Positions 18,312 to 25,412 of a stretch of 64,000 bases of DNA are shown here, piece after piece. The DNA is taken from contig NZ_JALGRF010000001.1 in assembly GCF_022815725.1 (NCBI RefSeq), positions 620,001-684,000 on the forward strand, written 5' to 3'. The stretch comes from Streptomyces sp. APSN-46.1 (lineage in GTDB: Bacteria; Actinomycetota; Actinomycetes; Streptomycetales; Streptomycetaceae). The first letter of the stretch is position 1, and every line of letters starts with the position of its first letter. The notes below the pieces were generated by a model. It had not been told where the DNA came from. It saw nothing but the letters and a program-made list of their open reading frames with translations, and made no database searches. Both the position numbers and the translations under genes were made by a program.

Positions 18312-19715
18312 TCACCGGGCACGCGGCCACCCCGTACGACGTCGGGAGGCGCGCGGCCCGCGCCCGGACGGCAGGGGTGGAGCGAGCCCGAAGACCACGG
18401 TGATCTGCGCGCCGCCGCGGGGCCCGCGGGCGATGCGCACCGAGCCGCCGGTGACGGACCCGGCCCTGCGGGCGATGTCGAGGCCGAGCCCCGAGGAGCC
18501 GGTGCTGCTCCCTCGGGAGAGGGCCCGGTCCGGTTCGGGGATGCCCGGACCGGCGTCCTCCACGACCAGTTCCACGGCCTGGGCGGTACGGGCGACGCGG
18601 ACGCCGAACGGGGTGCCGGGCGGGGTGTGCCGGAAGACATTGCCGATGAGCGCGTCCACCACGGCGGCGACGTCGTCGTCGGACAGGCTGACGGCCGCGG
18701 GCTCCTGAGTGAGGTCGAGAGAGCAGGGACGGTTCTGCTGCTCCGCCAGGACCGCCCAGAAGGCGGTCCGGCGGCGCACGACGTCGGCTGCCTCGCAGCG
18801 GGGTCCGGACGGTCTCGGGCTCGTGGCGTGGTGGCCCGTGCCCGCTTCCGTGCCGAGCATGCCCTGGCCCATCGGGCCCACGGCGAGCGGGGTGCGGGCC
18901 GCGGTGATGATGGCCTGGAGTTCCGTTTCCAGTGCGCACACGGCGGCCTCGACCCTGGCCGACTCCGGTGAGCCGGCCATGCGTTCCGATGCCAGGTGCA
19001 GGGCGGTCAGCGGGGTGCGCAGCCGGTGGGACAGGTCGGCGACCAGTTCGCGTTCGACGGCGAGCAGCTCGGTCATCCGGTGGGCCATGGTGTTGAAGGC
19101 GATGCCCGCCTCGCGCAGTTCCCTGGGTCCCATGGGGTCCACGCGGGCGTCCAGATTGCCTTGGCCCAGGGCCTGGGAGGCGTGGGCGAGCCTCTTGGAG
19201 GACCTGACGACCTTCGCTCCGAGGCGGTCGGCGACCAGTACGGAACCGCCGACCAGCCCCACGGCGAGGAGGAGCATGACCGCCCAGGAGGCCTTGACCC
19301 CCCGGGTCAGCTCCTGCTCGGGGACGAAGTTCTCGATGACGGCGACCCGGTCGCCGGGCAGGACCACCGGCTGCAGGCATATCCAGCCGCCGGGAATCCC
19401 CTGCGAGATGGACTCGCGGCCCTGCTGGGCCCGTTCGAGCAGCGCCGCGGGGGCTCGGGAGCTGCCGAGGGCGGGGGCGTCCGGCAGGTGGACGACCACG
19501 TGCTCGGCCGCGTCCAGGCTGGCGGCGGATTCCCGCAGGGCGGACGGATCCGTGGTCAGCGTCAGTACGGGGGCCAGGGCGGCGGCCCGCTGCTCGGCGG
19601 CGGTGACGCTCTGCTCCTTGACCAGCGACATCACCAGTGCGGCCAGCGGTATGAGGAAGGAGAGGGCGACCATGGACGTGACGGCGAGCGCCACTCCGGC
19701 CAGGGAGCGTCTCAC
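18312..19715 (-). CDS. Sensor histidine kinase
   Basis: Membrane kinase of 467 residues. Two membrane spans (about 10-32 and 142-163) flank an extracytoplasmic sensor of about 110 residues containing a lone cysteine (GGWICLQP), followed by HAMP (164-216), HisKA with LVADLSHRLRTPLTAL (phospho-His230) and an ATPase domain with VDALIGNVFRHTP and GLGLDIARR boxes. Overlaps the response-regulator gene by 4 bases. Downstream of envelope thiol-disulphide genes, so it probably senses envelope redox or protein-folding state. The C-terminal 40 residues are Arg/Gly-rich. Confidence 0.9.
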   Translation of the reverse strand: MRRSLAGVALAVTSMVALSFLIPLAALVMSLVKEQSVTAAEQRAAALAPVLTLTTDPSALRESAASLDAAEHVVVHLPDAPALGSSRAPAALLERAQQGRESISQGIPGGWICLQPVVLPGDRVAVIENFVPEQELTRGVKASWAVMLLLAVGLVGGSVLVADRLGAKVVRSSKRLAHASQALGQGNLDARVDPMGPRELREAGIAFNTMAHRMTELLAVERELVADLSHRLRTPLTALHLASERMAGSPESARVEAAVCALETELQAIITAARTPLAVGPMGQGMLGTEAGTGHHATSPRPSGPRCEAADVVRRRTAFWAVLAEQQNRPCSLDLTQEPAAVSLSDDDVAAVVDALIGNVFRHTPPGTPFGVRVARTAQAVELVVEDAGPGIPEPDRALSRGSSTGSSGLGLDIARRAGSVTGGSVRIARGPRGGAQITVVFGLAPPLPSGRGPRASRRRTGWPRAR

Positions 19716-20449
19716 CGAGGCGCCACCAGCTTGATGCCGACGCCGCGGACGGTCAGCAGGTAGCGCGGGGCGGCCGCGCGTTCGCCGAGCTTGCGGCGCA
19801 GCGACGACAGGTGTACGTCGACGGTCTGGTCGTCGACGTACGGCTCGCGCCAGACCTCGGTCAGCAGCCGCCGCTTGGAGACGACCTGGCCGGTGTGGTG
19901 GGCGAGGAACGCCAGGAGGTCGAACTCGCGGCGGGTGAGTCGGAGCTCGCGGCCGGACAGGTACGCGGTGCGCGCGCCGGGGTCCACCGCGAGCTCGCCC
20001 ACGGTGGTGGGGCGCAACGGTTCGGCCGCCGCTGCCGTCCGCGACCCCTGGGCGGCGTGCGAGGCATGGGCGGGCGGAAGGTGGCTGGTGCGCCTCAGGA
20101 CCGCGGAGAGGCGTGCGATCAGTTGTCCTCCGGAGAAGGGTTTGACCAGGTAGTCGTCGGCGCCCGCGTTGAGGAGCTTGATGATTTCCGTTTCGTCGTC
20201 GCGGGCGGTGGCCACCAGTACGGGAACGGAGGAAATGCCCCGGATCATGCGCAGTGCGTCTCCTCCGTCCAGATCGGGCAGTCCCAGGTCGAGGACGACG
20301 GCGTCGACGGGCATCTGGGTGACCTCGCGCAGGGCGCCGAACCCGTCACCCGTGCTGCGTACGGCATACCCGTGCTCCGCCAGGACTTCGATCAGTGACT
20401 GGCGGATGCTGGGGTCGTCTTCCACGACCAGGATGCTGGGCATGGGCAC
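19712..20449 (-). CDS. OmpR-family response regulator
   Basis: Response regulator of 245 residues. Receiver domain with acidic pair E10-D11-D12, phospho-acceptor Asp54 in VVLDLGLPD and Lys103 in VKPF; C-terminal winged helix from about 150 with RELRLTRREFDLLAFLA and VDVHLSSLRRKL. Between them is a Ser/Ala-rich linker. The start is preceded by AAGGTG. Cotranscribed with the kinase. Probable target sites are the paired 11-bp repeats described upstream of the thioredoxin and CAP-domain genes. Confidence 0.9.
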   Translation of the reverse strand: MPMPSILVVEDDPSIRQSLIEVLAEHGYAVRSTGDGFGALREVTQMPVDAVVLDLGLPDLDGGDALRMIRGISSVPVLVATARDDETEIIKLLNAGADDYLVKPFSGGQLIARLSAVLRRTSHLPPAHASHAAQGSRTAAAAEPLRPTTVGELAVDPGARTAYLSGRELRLTRREFDLLAFLAHHTGQVVSKRRLLTEVWREPYVDDQTVDVHLSSLRRKLGERAAAPRYLLTVRGVGIKLVAPR

Positions 20450-20470
20450 ACCTTAGGTGAACGCCAGTTC

Positions 20471-21031
20471 CTAGTGGGCGCCGAAGGCCGGGCCCTCGTC
20501 GGTGAGGCGCAGGTGGACGGGGTGGTCGGCGACCGGGATGGTGCAGCCTTCTTCCGAGCTGCAGCTCGCGTACCCGAGCAGTACCGTCGCCTCCCCGTTG
20601 CCGTCCGCGCGGATGGGAAGTGTGGTGGTGACGGGGCCGTCCGGGTAGACGGGGACCGGGGCGTCGACGCCCGGCACGCTGATCGTCCGTACGTCCGCGG
20701 CGGCCGTCAGCTTCCCGTCGGCCCGCAGGACCCCGGTGACGTCCATCGCGGTCGGCCGGCCCACGCCCTCGATTCCGGTGGCCGGCAGGTCGGTGCTGTA
20801 GAGGTGGAACCCCTTCTCCTCGGGGGTGAAGACCGCGGTCAGGGTGCCCTGCGGCGGATGCCAGTCGGAGACCGAGAGCGTGACGGTGACCCCGTTCTCG
20901 GTGAAGCTCGTCGTGGGCGAGGAAGCGCTCTTGGCGGGCTGCTCGCCGCATGCCGCGAGCGCGGCCAGGGAGAGGAGGGCGGCCGCGAGGCGGGCCTTGC
21001 GGGAGTGCCTCACGTACTCGAAAACGTTCAT
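20471..21031 (-). CDS. DsbD-alpha-like lipoprotein
   Basis: Secreted lipoprotein of 186 residues, signal segment with lipobox LAALAAC. The mature domain has GFHLYSTDLPATG and, near the C-terminus, CSSEEGCTIPVADHPV, matching the immunoglobulin-like thiol:disulphide exchange domain found at the N-terminus of DsbD/ScsB, with a cysteine pair C-x5-C. In DsbD this domain passes electrons from the membrane CcdA-like part to envelope partners; here it is a separate polypeptide next to ccdA. Confidence 0.75.
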   Translation of the reverse strand: MNVFEYVRHSRKARLAAALLSLAALAACGEQPAKSASSPTTSFTENGVTVTLSVSDWHPPQGTLTAVFTPEEKGFHLYSTDLPATGIEGVGRPTAMDVTGVLRADGKLTAAADVRTISVPGVDAPVPVYPDGPVTTTLPIRADGNGEATVLLGYASCSSEEGCTIPVADHPVHLRLTDEGPAFGAH

Positions 21032-21083: not shown

Positions 21084-21884
21084 CTAGACGGCTGTGGTGA
21101 ACTCCGCGCTCCACAACTGGAGCCGGTACACCAGGTCGTTCCACGCTCCGGTGGCCAGTAGCACGCCGACGAGGACGAGCATCCCGCCGCCGATCCGCAG
21201 GACCCACTGGTAGTGCCGTTTGACCAGGCCGAAGGCGCCCAGGGCCCGGCGGAAGGCCAGCGCGGCGAGGACGAACGGCAGGCCCAGCCCGAGGCAGTAG
21301 GCCGCCATCAGCAGGGCCCCGCGGGCCGCGCTCGCCTCGCTCCAGGCGAGCGCCTGTACGGCGGCCAGCGTCGGGCCGATGCACGGGGTCCACCCGACCG
21401 CGAACACCGCCCCCAGCGCGGGCGCGCCCGCCAGTCCGAGCACGGGCCGCCGGTGGCTGCGGAACTCCCGCTGCGTGAAGCCCGGCAGGAATCCCATGAA
21501 GGACAGCCCCATCAGCACGGTGAAGACGCCGAGCACCTGGGTGACCACCGTCTGGTGGGCCAGCAGGCTGCGGCCGAAATACCCGAACAGGGCGCCTCCG
21601 GAGACGAGGACTGCCGTGAAGCCCAGGACGAACAGCACGGCGCCGGCTGCCATCCGGCTGCGCTGCCCGCCGCGGGCGTCCGCCAGGTCGGAGACCGACA
21701 GGCTGGTCACGTAGCTGAGGTAGCCCGGCACGAGCGGCAGTACGCACGGCGAGAGGAAGGAGACGAGTCCCGCGACAAACGCCACGGGGGCGGCGACGGC
21801 CAACGTCCCGTGGAGGAGGGAGGGGGCGGCGTCGGCGGCGGCGAGGGCCACGCCGGTGAGCGCCACGCCGGTGAGCGCCGTCAT
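21084..21884 (-). CDS. ccdA: CcdA-type thiol-disulphide transmembrane transporter
   Basis: Integral membrane protein of 266 residues with six or more spans, typical length for CcdA. The conserved cysteines are in FLSPCVLPLVPGYLSY and GWTPCIGP, which carry reducing power from cytoplasmic thioredoxin across the membrane. Overlaps the TlpA-like gene by 4 bases. Works with the adjacent thioredoxin-like lipoproteins in cytochrome c maturation or general envelope disulphide reduction; no other cytochrome c genes are here, so the redox role is favoured. Confidence 0.9.
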   Translation of the reverse strand: MTALTGVALTGVALAAADAAPSLLHGTLAVAAPVAFVAGLVSFLSPCVLPLVPGYLSYVTSLSVSDLADARGGQRSRMAAGAVLFVLGFTAVLVSGGALFGYFGRSLLAHQTVVTQVLGVFTVLMGLSFMGFLPGFTQREFRSHRRPVLGLAGAPALGAVFAVGWTPCIGPTLAAVQALAWSEASAARGALLMAAYCLGLGLPFVLAALAFRRALGAFGLVKRHYQWVLRIGGGMLVLVGVLLATGAWNDLVYRLQLWSAEFTTAV

Positions 21885-22510
21885 GACGTCTCCTCCGCGA
21901 CGCGGGCGAGCAGGGGTCTCAGTTCCTCGTCGGTGACCGCGCCCCCGATGCTGACGGCGATCCGGCCGTGGCGGTCGATCACCAGGGTCGAGGGGATGGT
22001 CTGCGGGTTGAGGAGCGCGGGAGGAAAGCGGAGCAGGAGCTCGCCGGTGGGGTCGTGGAGGCTGGGGAATCCCACGCCGTGCGCGCGTACGAAGGACCGC
22101 GCCGCTGCGCGGTCCCGGTCGCGGGTGTTGATCCCGAGGAACCGGACGCCCTGGGCCCTGGTCTGCCCGCTGAGCCGCTCAAGGTCATCGGCCTCCGCCC
22201 GGCAGGGCCCGCACCACGATCCCCAGACGTTGAGGACGACGACCTGGCCCCGGAACTCGGCAAGGCTGACCGGCTTTCCGTCCAGGTCGGCGCCCGCCAG
22301 CGCGGGCGCGGCCGACCGGGCGCCGGAGTCCACGACCACGGCCGCGGACCCGGCCCTGACCGCGGCGCTCGCCGGGCCGGGCGGCGCCCCGCGTCCGCCG
22401 CCGCCGTCGCCGTCGGACGCGGCGCCGGCGGCGGCGTAGAGGCAGCCGGCGACCGCCACCGCGAGGCCGGCACCGGCCAGGGCGGTGGGTCGCGGTACCG
22501 GTCGTCTCAT
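21881..22510 (-). CDS. TlpA-like thioredoxin-fold lipoprotein/secreted protein
   Basis: Protein of 209 residues with a signal anchor (LAVAVAGCLYAAAG; a lipobox-like AVAGC is present) and a thioredoxin/AhpC-TSA fold carrying the active site WCGPC in VVLNVWGSWCGPC. The end TLVIDRHGRIA holds the usual cis-Pro strand region. Start ATG 22510 overlaps the stop of the upstream thioredoxin gene. Acts outside the membrane, reduced by CcdA, on disulphides of secreted or haem-binding proteins. Confidence 0.88.
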   Translation of the reverse strand: MRRPVPRPTALAGAGLAVAVAGCLYAAAGAASDGDGGGGRGAPPGPASAAVRAGSAAVVVDSGARSAAPALAGADLDGKPVSLAEFRGQVVVLNVWGSWCGPCRAEADDLERLSGQTRAQGVRFLGINTRDRDRAAARSFVRAHGVGFPSLHDPTGELLLRFPPALLNPQTIPSTLVIDRHGRIAVSIGGAVTDEELRPLLARVAEETS

Positions 22511-23289
22511 GACGCCCACTGGCGGAGGAAGGAGTTGATGCCGTCCGAGGTCAGGGCGGGATTGCCGGTGGCGTGGGTGTCGGTGCGCACCGTGCCGGAC
22601 GGCGAGACGACGATCAGGACGGGCATCTTGTAACTGCCGCCCGAAGGACTGTACTTGCGCAGGAGCGCGGAGTTGGCGGAGCTGTTGCCGCCGATGTCGA
22701 CCTTGACCAGGTGGTACGAGGCCCCGAGGATCGATGCCGTCTGCGGCTGGGCGAACACCTTGTCGGCCGCCTTGCAGTTGCCGCACCAGTTGGCGCCGAA
22801 GTCGAGCAGCACCATCCGCCCGTCGGCCTTGGCCGCGCGCAGCGCCGCGTCGATCTGCTTCTGCGCGTCGGCCGAACTGTCGTAGCCGGGCCCGGGTATC
22901 CGGGCCGGGGTGGGCGCGGCGGAGGTACGGGACGGCTTGGGGGCGGGCTTGGCGGTCTGGGCGCGCGAGGGGGTCGGCGAGGAGCCGGCCGGGATGGTGG
23001 CGGACGGGGTGGTGGCGGACGCCGACGGCGTGGCGGAAGCGGTCGGGGACGCCTCGGCGGACGCGGACTCCGTCCCGGCCGGGAGGGTCTGCGACGGCTG
23101 TCCGGCCGTGGTCGGCGCGGCAGCGCCGGTGGGCTTGGTGGGCTGGGTGGACGGGCCGCACGCGGCGGTCAGCCCGGCGGCGACCACGGCCGCGGCCACC
23201 AGGGGCAGCCGCACGCCCAGGGGCGTGGCGGAGCGGGGGCGCGTCGTGAGGCGGGCGGCACGGACGGGTCGGAGTATGCGAGAAGTCAT
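22507..23289 (-). CDS. Lipoprotein thioredoxin (DsbD-gamma/Trx-like)
   Basis: Protein of 260 residues: lipoprotein signal with LTAAC, a 90-residue Thr/Ser/Pro/Ala-rich wall-spanning linker, then a thioredoxin domain with active site WCGNC (LLDFGANWCGNC) as in DsbD C-terminal domains. First gene of the thiol-redox operon. The ATG at 23289 with GGGGTG upstream is preferred to one 7 codons earlier that lacks a ribosome site. About 200 bp upstream is a paired-repeat motif shared with another gene of the region. Confidence 0.87.
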   Translation of the reverse strand: MTSRILRPVRAARLTTRPRSATPLGVRLPLVAAAVVAAGLTAACGPSTQPTKPTGAAAPTTAGQPSQTLPAGTESASAEASPTASATPSASATTPSATIPAGSSPTPSRAQTAKPAPKPSRTSAAPTPARIPGPGYDSSADAQKQIDAALRAAKADGRMVLLDFGANWCGNCKAADKVFAQPQTASILGASYHLVKVDIGGNSSANSALLRKYSPSGGSYKMPVLIVVSPSGTVRTDTHATGNPALTSDGINSFLRQWAS

Positions 23290-23485: not shown

Positions 23486-23507
23486 CTTGAGGTTCCCCTA
23501 AGGAACA
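23486..23507. promoter_or_regulatory. Putative OmpR-type direct-repeat operator (copy 1)
   Basis: Two adjacent 11-bp units, CTTGAGGTTCC and CCTAAGGAACA, lie upstream of the thioredoxin gene. The same arrangement (CTTCAAGGTCC, CTTAAGGAAGC) occurs at 25313. An 11-bp pitch is the usual spacing of half-sites for OmpR-family regulators. Confidence 0.5.
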
Positions 23508-23623
23508 GCTCACCTTCCGCTTCACCGGAACTCGGGCGTATGAGCGCATACATGGGGGTGAAACCCGCAAAAGGGATCAGGGGATTGAGTAGTGCGTGCG
23601 GAGCGGCCGCAGCGGCCAGGCCG

Positions 23624-24202
23624 TCAGAAGGACGTCTCGCGGACGCTGGCCTTCGCCGAGGGGGTGATCGTCGCCGTGATGACCGAGCGGTGGTCCGCGC
23701 TGGTGAACGTGACGGTCAGGGTGTCGTCCGCGGTCTGTGAGGTGCTGGCCTTGTACCCGCGGCTGGGTATCGCGGAGATCAGGCACACGCCGCGGCTGCC
23801 GTAGCGCACGGTGGCCTTGCCGCCCTGCGAGGGGACGGTGTGCAGGCCCGGTCCGCCCTCGTCGCAGTCGACGGGTGGTTTGGGTGCTGTCGTCCGAGGG
23901 GTTCCCGTCGAGGCCTTCACGGGGGTGGGCGTCGAAGCCGGAGGTGACGGTCGCTCGGTCGCGGCGGGCGAGCCGCCGGGGGTGGCGCTCGGGGACTGCG
24001 GGCTCAGGGACTGCGGGCTCGGTGACTGGCCATCCGCCGCCTGCCAGGCCGGCGGCGTGTCGAAGACCATGGGGGCGGACCGCGCGACCGGAGGCGTATG
24101 CCTGGTCGAGCCGACCACGAACTGGACCGTGACGAGCACGGCGGTCACGCTGGTGGCCGTGCACGACAGCCAAATGAGCAGGTAGCGCGGAATTCGGGGC
24201 AC
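23624..24202 (-). CDS. Membrane-anchored secreted hypothetical protein
   Basis: Protein of 192 residues starting at GTG. One N-terminal membrane span (LLIWLSCTATSVTAVLVTVQF), a Ser/Pro/Thr-rich linker with QSPSPQSLSPQSPS, and a small C-terminal extracellular domain of about 90 residues with two cysteines (DCDEGG and GVCLIS) probably forming a disulphide. The family is not recognised. Lies between CAP-domain and thioredoxin genes on the same strand, fitting an envelope role. Confidence 0.65.
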   Translation of the reverse strand: MPRIPRYLLIWLSCTATSVTAVLVTVQFVVGSTRHTPPVARSAPMVFDTPPAWQAADGQSPSPQSLSPQSPSATPGGSPAATERPSPPASTPTPVKASTGTPRTTAPKPPVDCDEGGPGLHTVPSQGGKATVRYGSRGVCLISAIPSRGYKASTSQTADDTLTVTFTSADHRSVITATITPSAKASVRETSF

Positions 24203-24340
24203 GGCCCCATAGTGGCCGACGCGCGGGGCGGCCCGTCACCGCCTCCCCCGTAACGGACACGGCCTGCCGCCCGGTGCCGGATCCGCGGGTGAACGCCGAC
24301 GTCCTCCTGGCCCGCGTACGGGTCGGAGGACGTGTGCCGG

Positions 24341-24358
24341 GCCCCGCGGGCGCGGGGC
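24341..24358. terminator. GC hairpin after CAP-domain gene
   Basis: GCCCCGCG-GG-CGCGGGGC, a perfect 8-bp stem, 35 bases beyond the CAP gene stop. No T-run follows, so termination is possible but unproven. Confidence 0.4.
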
Positions 24359-24392
24359 GGGGGCGGGGCGGGGTGAGGCGGGGTGAGGGTTC

Positions 24393-25226
24393 CTACTTCG
24401 GCGTTCCGAAGTTCTGCGTCCACCAGGGGCCGCCGTCGCCCTTGTGGAGGCCTATGCCGATCTCCCGGAAGTCGCAGTTGAGGATGTTGGCCTTGTGGCC
24501 GGGGCTGTTCATCCACGCGTTCATGACCGCGGCGGCGTCCGCCTGGCCCCGGGCTATGTTCTCGCCCAGGCGGGACCAGCCGTATCCGGCGGCTTCCACG
24601 CGGGTGGTCATGGTGGACCCGTCGGGTCCGGTGTGGGACATGACGCCGCTGCGGGCCATGGTGTCGCTGTACGCCCGTGCCGCGGCGCTCAACTTGGCGT
24701 TCGCGGTCAGCGCACCGCACCCGGCCGCGGCCCGCTCCTTGTTGACCAGGGCGAGAACCGCGGACTCCGCCCCGGACTCGCCGGAGGAGCCGCCCGGACC
24801 ACCGGAACCGCCGTCGGTGGTCGCGGCGGGCGTACGGGAGGGCTTGACGGGCTGGGCGGGCTTGGCGGCCCGGGTCGACGCCGAGGTGGCCGGGCGGCTC
24901 TCCGCCGCCGACTTCGTGGGAGCGGCGGATCCCGTGGCGTCGGCGGCGGGCGTCGCGGACGGCATCACGCCGGTCGCGGACGCGGCGTCGGCGGAGCGTG
25001 TGGGGTCGGCGGGAGAAGGGGTTGCCGTCGCCTCCTCGCCACCGGAGCCCGCCGCCCCGGACCTCGGTCCGCTCGCGCGTACGCCGTCGTCGGAGTCGGC
25101 CACCGCGACCCCGACCGCCACCGCCGCGGCCGCCGCGGTGAGGGACAGCACGATGCGCGTGCGCACCGTCTTCTTCCGCCGCGCCTCGACGCGGGACGGG
25201 GTTCCGGGAGTTCGGCTGCGGCTCAT
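24393..25226 (-). CDS. Secreted CAP-domain (SCP/PR1) protein
   Basis: Protein of 277 residues. Basic N-terminus and one membrane span (about 24-45), then a 100-residue Ala/Ser/Thr-rich linker, then a CAP domain with LVNKERAAAGCGAL, MARSGVMSHTGPDG, LGENIARGQ and WMNSPGHKANIL, the family signatures including the two histidines of the CAP cavity. Start chosen at ATG 25226 with GAGAGGTG upstream; more upstream in-frame codons include the operator region. Secreted CAP proteins in actinomycetes are of unknown biochemical role, often calcium-linked. Confidence 0.85.
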   Translation of the reverse strand: MSRSRTPGTPSRVEARRKKTVRTRIVLSLTAAAAAVAVGVAVADSDDGVRASGPRSGAAGSGGEEATATPSPADPTRSADAASATGVMPSATPAADATGSAAPTKSAAESRPATSASTRAAKPAQPVKPSRTPAATTDGGSGGPGGSSGESGAESAVLALVNKERAAAGCGALTANAKLSAAARAYSDTMARSGVMSHTGPDGSTMTTRVEAAGYGWSRLGENIARGQADAAAVMNAWMNSPGHKANILNCDFREIGIGLHKGDGGPWWTQNFGTPK

Positions 25227-25312
25227 GCCTGTGGCACCTCTCAGCAAGAAGGGGAGGACGGGTCCCCCGAGCCTAGGGTGGTGACCAGCGAAAACGGCTC
25301 CCCGGAGGTGTT

Positions 25313-25334
25313 CTTCAAGGTCCCTTAAGGAAGC
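25313..25334. promoter_or_regulatory. Putative OmpR-type direct-repeat operator (copy 2)
   Basis: CTTCAAGGTCC followed directly by CTTAAGGAAGC, about 90 bp upstream of the CAP-domain gene; 11-bp pitch and sequence match the copy at 23486-23507. Confidence 0.5.
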
Positions 25335-25412
25335 CCGCAGGGTCGGCACAGGATTGGGCCGCGGTGGCTGTTCACACCGGGCGGCGCGTCGTGCACAGCA
25401 GTGGCGCCCCAG

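Follow-up and report, generated by a model that had tools for sequence, protein, structure and literature searches.

Within a 64,000-nucleotide stretch of the genome of Streptomyces sp. APSN-46.1 (contig NZ_JALGRF010000001.1, positions 620,001 to 684,000; hereafter, the window), two similar pairs of 11-bp repeats lie upstream of a thioredoxin-like (trx) gene and of a gene for a CAP protein. Are these the binding sites of the response regulator that is encoded at the same locus? An earlier reading of this DNA (the original prediction) proposed that they are, that the two copies match in sequence, spacing, and orientation, and that a weaker copy precedes the regulator gene itself.

Two promoters share an operator-like element and a -10 box

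On the plus strand, the sites read directly as CTTGAGGTTCC/CCTAAGGAACA from position 23486 and as CTTCAAGGTCC/CTTAAGGAAGC from 25313, and the paired repeats are indeed present upstream of both genes. Because the trx and CAP genes are both on the minus strand, we read the sites in the sense of the genes: TTCCTTAGGGGAACCTCAAG (23505-23486) for trx and TTCCTTAAGGGACCTTGAAG (25332-25313) for CAP. The core operator of the trx operon (23486..23505, minus strand; 20 trx-type sites aligned) comprises two 11-bp units, CCTTAGGGGAA and CCTCAAGATCA. It agrees with the core operator of the CAP gene (25313..25332, minus strand; direct reading and alignment) at 16 of 20 bases. Both have conserved extensions on the 5' side. 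The one next to the trx operator (GAAGCGGAAGGTGAGC..., 23506..23526, minus strand; alignment, by eye) is perhaps a weaker third unit that may be functional, and the one next to the CAP operator (CCTGTGCCGAC CCTGCGGGC, 25333..25352, minus strand; alignment, self-match of 0.46) consists of two more CCT-headed 11-bp units.

A -10-like box, which the original prediction had missed, lies 37 nt downstream of each operator. These TA(T/G)GCT boxes (direct reading and alignment) are TATGCT for trx (23448-23443, minus strand) and TAGGCT for CAP (25275-25270, minus strand), and the ten bases around them (CCTATGCTCG versus CCTAGGCTCG) are alike at nine positions. If we consider the 20 operator positions and these 10 positions together, then the two promoters are identical at 25 of 30 positions, while the top score over 100 first-order Markov copies of the window was 20 of 30. 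The repeat pair is genuine and non-random. The half-pattern CTTNANGGTNCC alone, with one mismatch allowed, is at chance level (9 seen versus 8.9 expected), so it is the whole element with its -10 box that carries the significance. As for the proposed shared spacing, the distance from the operator to the likely start codon differs (196 nt for trx, with its start at 23289, and 86 nt for CAP, with its start at 25226), yet the distance from the operator to the -10 box is the same.

The original prediction had also suggested a motif search for further members of the regulon, but none turned up beyond the two sites. With up to three mismatches, the 20-mer has seven matches in the genome (the two sites and five matches with three mismatches), versus eight for a backward control. 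The whole-promoter pattern, again with up to three mismatches, matches only the two sites, in a scan that could miss sites that are spaced differently or have diverged further.

The genes of the locus

The trx gene is the first of six minus-strand genes that overlap or are separated by gaps of at most about 55 bases. It encodes a thioredoxin-like lipoprotein of the type of the DsbD C-terminal domain (22507..23289; Pfam PF13899; NCBIfam DsbD residues 461-558; start chosen by eye). It is followed by genes for a TlpA/ResA-like thiol-disulfide protein (21881..22510; family-profile scans), a CcdA/DsbD transmembrane protein (21084..21884; PF02683), a lipoprotein without a Pfam match (20471..21031; cysteine pattern by eye), the response regulator (19712..20443), and a sensor histidine kinase (18312..19715; family-profile scans). 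The set suggests a split version of the DsbD reducing pathway, because the thioredoxin-like protein corresponds to the C-terminal domain of DsbD and the CcdA protein to its membrane part; by eye, the lipoprotein is perhaps the counterpart of the DsbD alpha domain. The regulator, which is the proposed binder, belongs to the OmpR/PhoB family: it has a receiver domain (PF00072, 7.6e-27) and a C-terminal winged-helix domain (Trans_reg_C; PF00486, 4.1e-25).

Two genes lie upstream of the six-gene set, also on the minus strand. One encodes an exported CAP (YkwD-type) protein (24393..25226; PF00188, with TIGR02909 from NCBIfam under its cut-off). The other encodes an exported, membrane-anchored protein that we label U227 (23624..24202), which was delineated from its conserved neighborhood and structure prediction and is a constant neighbor of this two-component system. 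U227 is predicted to have one membrane helix, a disordered linker, and a C-terminal beta domain (pLDDT mostly 94-98), and it has two invariant cysteines. Neither Pfam nor NCBIfam assigned it to a family, and because a fold search of the PDB had no match at E ≤ 0.001 (the best was 0.013), its role is guesswork. The extracellular part of the kinase contains a cysteine, in GGWICLQPVVL, that is found in 23 of 24 kinases of the window clade (defined below; the exception is L018) and at that place in none of 26 others. The constant partner U227 and this clade-specific sensor cysteine might be unusual features.

A paralogous system was seen on another contig (locus L002, contig C15, 191831-192514), with a regulator that is 62% identical, a kinase, and an adjoining divergent U227-like gene (31% identity). 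No comparable operator was found near it: its best score was 4.6, versus a maximum of 38.2, with a matrix that included two sites from loci it was tested on.

The operators are tandem arrays at a fixed distance from the -10 box

Operators of OmpR/PhoB-family regulators are tandem direct repeats with a period of about one helical turn (10-11 bp). The sites at this locus and its relatives have this form, narrowly so in the trx set: when the arrays were compared with themselves, the match peaked at 11 bp in all three sets (0.46 for CAP sites, 0.37 for trx sites, and 0.40 for other loci), and on the trx side the peak barely exceeded the values at 6 and 17 bp (0.35 each). By eye, three or four CCT-headed units are legible in many loci. 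The best two units have the form CCTTARGGNAA-CCTNAAG, and the weaker units are further upstream. In nearly all sites, a conserved TANGNT box follows, at a distance from the core that is 37-38 nt in the different groups. The region expected to hold a -35 element is poor. At one locus, the trx operator holds an inserted extra 10-bp unit (TTCCTTAGGGCACCTTAGGGCAACCTCAAG, L014:6969-6998).

Conservation in close relatives and across genomes

A search with the regulator yielded 50 loci. In one group of these, which we call the window clade, the regulator is 77-93% identical and the set of genes is the same. Both operators are present, with at most three mismatches, in all 18 window-clade loci whose contigs extend beyond the CAP gene. 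Five other loci (L020, L026, L027, L028, and L029) end before the locus is complete, and L027 retains the trx copy of the operator. We aligned 20 trx-type sites (from the window, the 18 complete loci, and L027) and 19 CAP-type sites, the latter along with one mis-registered row that is part of the trx operator of L014 (L014:6969). The average frequency of the major base at the trx-type sites was 0.96 in the operator and 0.89 in the -10 box, versus 0.65 in the 60 bases upstream and 0.79 in the spacer; for the CAP-type sites, the corresponding values were 0.93, 0.90, 0.68, and 0.76. In other words, the operator and the -10 box are kept while the flanks drift.

Across 392 Streptomyces genomes, the promoter pattern was found at 32 sites in 19 genomes, versus 1 site in 1 genome for a reversed-pattern control. 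The regulator is present (E ≤ 1e-85) in 51 of the 392 genomes, and the 19 genomes with the pattern are exactly those whose regulator is at least 85% identical. We inspected the neighboring genes for 30 of the 32 sites: 29 precede a CAP or trx gene and the other is at the end of a contig. Among 200 genomes from the family, the pattern was found in nine, from three genera (control, none), and in all 8 of the loci that we inspected, out of ten given for the new sites, the pattern precedes a CAP or trx gene. These counts are not independent of each other or of the close loci, because some loci and genomes are probably the same strains (likely duplicates include L012/G227, L035/G417, and L036/G406).

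More distant relatives were represented by 26 other loci, with regulators that are about 65-80% identical, some of them from other genera. (This count omits L033, whose contig is that of L119, and two window-clade loci, L027 and L028; where the regulator is 67-74% identical, 12 of 24 genomes were sampled.) We scanned these loci with a matrix that was built from window-clade sites only. In 24 of the 26, the best match lies on the right strand within 1,000 nt upstream of a CAP or trx gene, a target that makes up 3.9% of the sequence searched; 60 column-shuffled matrices placed at most 4 of 26 on target (mean 0.88). In L034, the true site ranks second, and in L120, the scan found no recognizable site before CAP.

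The order of genes differs between groups. Nearly all loci have CAP and U227 close to the genes for the regulator and kinase, while the thiol genes are missing from many loci or arranged differently, which makes CAP the more constant target. Some groups have the regulator and kinase genes as a stand-alone pair, and there the pair is not preceded by an operator.

The element before the regulator gene is probably a -10 box

The original prediction was right that a CCTAAGG-like sequence precedes the regulator gene (20457-20451, minus strand), but this is not an operator. It is a single copy, its orientation relative to the gene is opposite, and it is kept only in the window clade. CCTAAGG occurs three times in the window, with 2.05 expected. 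Comparison to homologs points to a different signal at this place: TAAGGT (20450..20455, minus strand), with six or seven bases between it and the ATG in all 18 close loci. In all 11 other loci shown, a TANNNT (TAACGT, TACCGT, TAGGGT, TACCTT, or TACGGT) is found 7-8 nt before the ATG, and none of the 11 contains CCTAAGG. In leaderless Streptomyces promoters, a TANNNT box ends 6-8 nt upstream of the start codon, as is found here. Because TANNNT is kept at this place and CCTAAGG is not, the weaker element is best read as the -10 box of what is probably a leaderless promoter. (The regulator's open reading frame was listed from a GTG at 20449; the starts of the homologs and the position of the -10 box favor the ATG at 20443.) We also considered a third operator here and rejected it, as every group has TANNNT at this place, CCTAAGG is restricted to the window clade, and the gene is not preceded by an array of repeats.

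Which protein binds the operators?

Given their form and conservation, it is quite likely that both sites are operators through which the OmpR-family regulator, encoded 3 kb downstream, activates transcription. This part of the original prediction is supported for the two operator-like sites and not for the element before the regulator gene. The same-locus regulator is by far the best candidate for the binder, as judged from the conservation of the sites, their co-occurrence with the regulator, the 11-bp tandem repeats, and the erosion of the operator in one genome (G310, below). Co-occurrence itself cannot name the binder, because the operator and the regulator share one locus and any cis-element of these promoters would co-occur.

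Just a few natural cases can discriminate: G310, G012, and G083. Relatives of the trx gene are present in 26 of the 392 genomes, and 25 of these also have the regulator. The exception is G310, which has kept the thioredoxin gene and a lipoprotein gene and whose only such regulator is a paralog (61% identity). Its operator scores 7.5, versus 16.9 in five relatives; it has lost the TTCC start, its upstream unit has changed, and 5 of its 34 bases are unlike those of a related locus (L125). This single case of erosion after loss of the regulator is suggestive only, because 4 of 34 bases are also unlike those of L125 in another locus (L190), whose genome has the regulator (score still 16.8). In G012, a rearrangement has separated the regulator, kinase, and lipoprotein genes by about 885 kb from the remaining thiol genes and their operator, which is intact. 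G083 carries the locus twice, at places about 7.1 Mb from each other (L141 and L142). In its second copy, the regulator gene is gone and the kinase gene is broken, and CAP, U227, trx, and the two operators are retained.

G041 has an atypical arrangement. Its thiol operon, on a contig of its own (C234; L191), has no recognizable operator. Elsewhere (L122:11080-12255), its CAP gene is behind a trx-type operator, and an inverted partial copy of CAP lies at the end of the contig. This could reflect an exchange of promoters or an artefact of assembly.

Could another protein bind the sites, which merely happen to be located here? The 62% identical paralog on C15 has a similar DNA-binding domain, and its system also adjoins a relative of U227; locus co-occurrence does not tell it, or a global regulator, apart from the same-locus regulator. 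We consider another binder unlikely. A global regulator is at odds with the lack of a further site at up to three mismatches in this genome, and the paralog is at odds with G310, which retains a 61% identical paralog and yet has an eroded operator, and with the low matrix score of the paralogous locus (4.6 of 38.2). It is similarly improbable that the regulator binds these sites to repress, or does both there. The sequence tells the position of a site and not the sign of its effect, but each array, at about -50 to -69, is upstream of a promoter with a poor -35 region, while repressors more often overlap the -10 box or the transcription start.

That both repeats precede genes and are nearly identical might also be expected if they were the -35 and -10 core elements of an alternative sigma factor, which the original prediction had named as the outcome that would overturn it. 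This is very unlikely: the element is an 11-bp tandem array, and a separate conserved TANGNT sits 37-38 nt downstream, which is too distant for a -35/-10 pair. A further reading is that the two promoters are alike by chance or that one was recently copied. In L121-L126, part of the leader that follows the -10 box is common to both promoters (by eye), so that one may have given rise to the other. Chance is hard to square with 25 of 30 identities when 100 Markov copies reached at most 20, and a recent copy is hard to square with the unrelated spacers between operator and -10 box and with the retention of the operator and -10 box across genera. This reading is already refuted by the conservation.

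A proposed mechanism

If the same-locus regulator is the activator, then its phosphorylated dimers would align along the tandem array of 11-bp direct repeats on one face of the DNA. The core array would lie at about -69 to -50 from the inferred transcription start; because of this position and the poor -35 region, we infer class I activation, in which the regulator would contact the alpha subunit of RNA polymerase. Two units would be activated: CAP-U227 and trx-tlpA-ccdA-lipoprotein-regulator-kinase. Since the second unit ends with the regulator and kinase genes, activation would involve a feedback on these two genes. Any such feedback would act through the trx promoter only, as no array precedes the regulator gene, and it would not be general, given the stand-alone regulator-kinase pairs without an operator. 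The signal may be the state of the cell envelope or of its thiols.

A broader scheme is tentative, and we think it somewhat doubtful: the kinase, the regulator, and U227 as a tuner of the kinase would form a three-part envelope sensor whose core and ancestral output is CAP, the split DsbD module would have been added in some lineages via a second copy of the operator promoter, and the sensor cysteine of the window clade would tie the activity of the kinase to the thiol state governed by this added output.

With these results, an uncharacterized two-component system from several genera of the family gains a small regulon and a specific operator that can be tested, and an exported CAP protein becomes linked to a pathway for thiol reduction outside the cytoplasm. 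The architecture of the promoter (array, 37-38 nt, and -10 box) is fixed while the surrounding genes shuffle. The definition of the operator opens the way to direct binding tests and to a search for the signal.

Comparison with known systems

Our literature searches, which were mostly outside of subscription papers, did not find a description of this system, its motif, its regulon, or its locus, or of a counterpart in S. coelicolor; nor do the available parts of PMC12802291, PMC9739842, PMC13118837, PMC7866108, and PMC6657201 describe the system. The likeness to Streptomyces CutRS (secretion stress), whose kinase senses extracellular disulfides, is in an output that concerns the quality of extracytoplasmic proteins or thiols. 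According to PMC12802291, CutR binds TAWATAAA and CutS carries two conserved sensor cysteines. On that description, we rejected membership in the CutR regulon, as the operators here lack TAWATAAA, and a disulfide sensor of the CutS type, as the kinases of the window clade have a single sensor cysteine and those outside it have none at that place.

CseB of the CseB-CseC/sigma-E system is the regulator's best match in NCBIfam. The regulator is not CseB itself, since it scores 174 bits against the equivalog model (NF041733), for which the cut-off is 350. CseB-CseC is also associated with sigma-E, while a scan of nine proteins from this locus revealed no sigma factor. PrrA, RegX3, and MtrA of M. 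tuberculosis are among the closest solved relatives by sequence and represent paralogous families.

The consensus for PhoP is GTTCACC, and by eye, the units here (CCTTARG/CCTNAAG) differ from it. The targets differ as well: redox and CAP genes here, phosphate genes for PhoP. In organization, the operators resemble the PHO boxes: according to PMC7866108, Streptomyces PhoP, which is likewise an actinomycete regulator of the OmpR family, binds direct repeats with units of 11 nt, in the form of a core plus weaker ancillary units, and the repeat unit here is 11 nt as well. The operator pair is a fresh example of an ordinary, known kind of gene switch.
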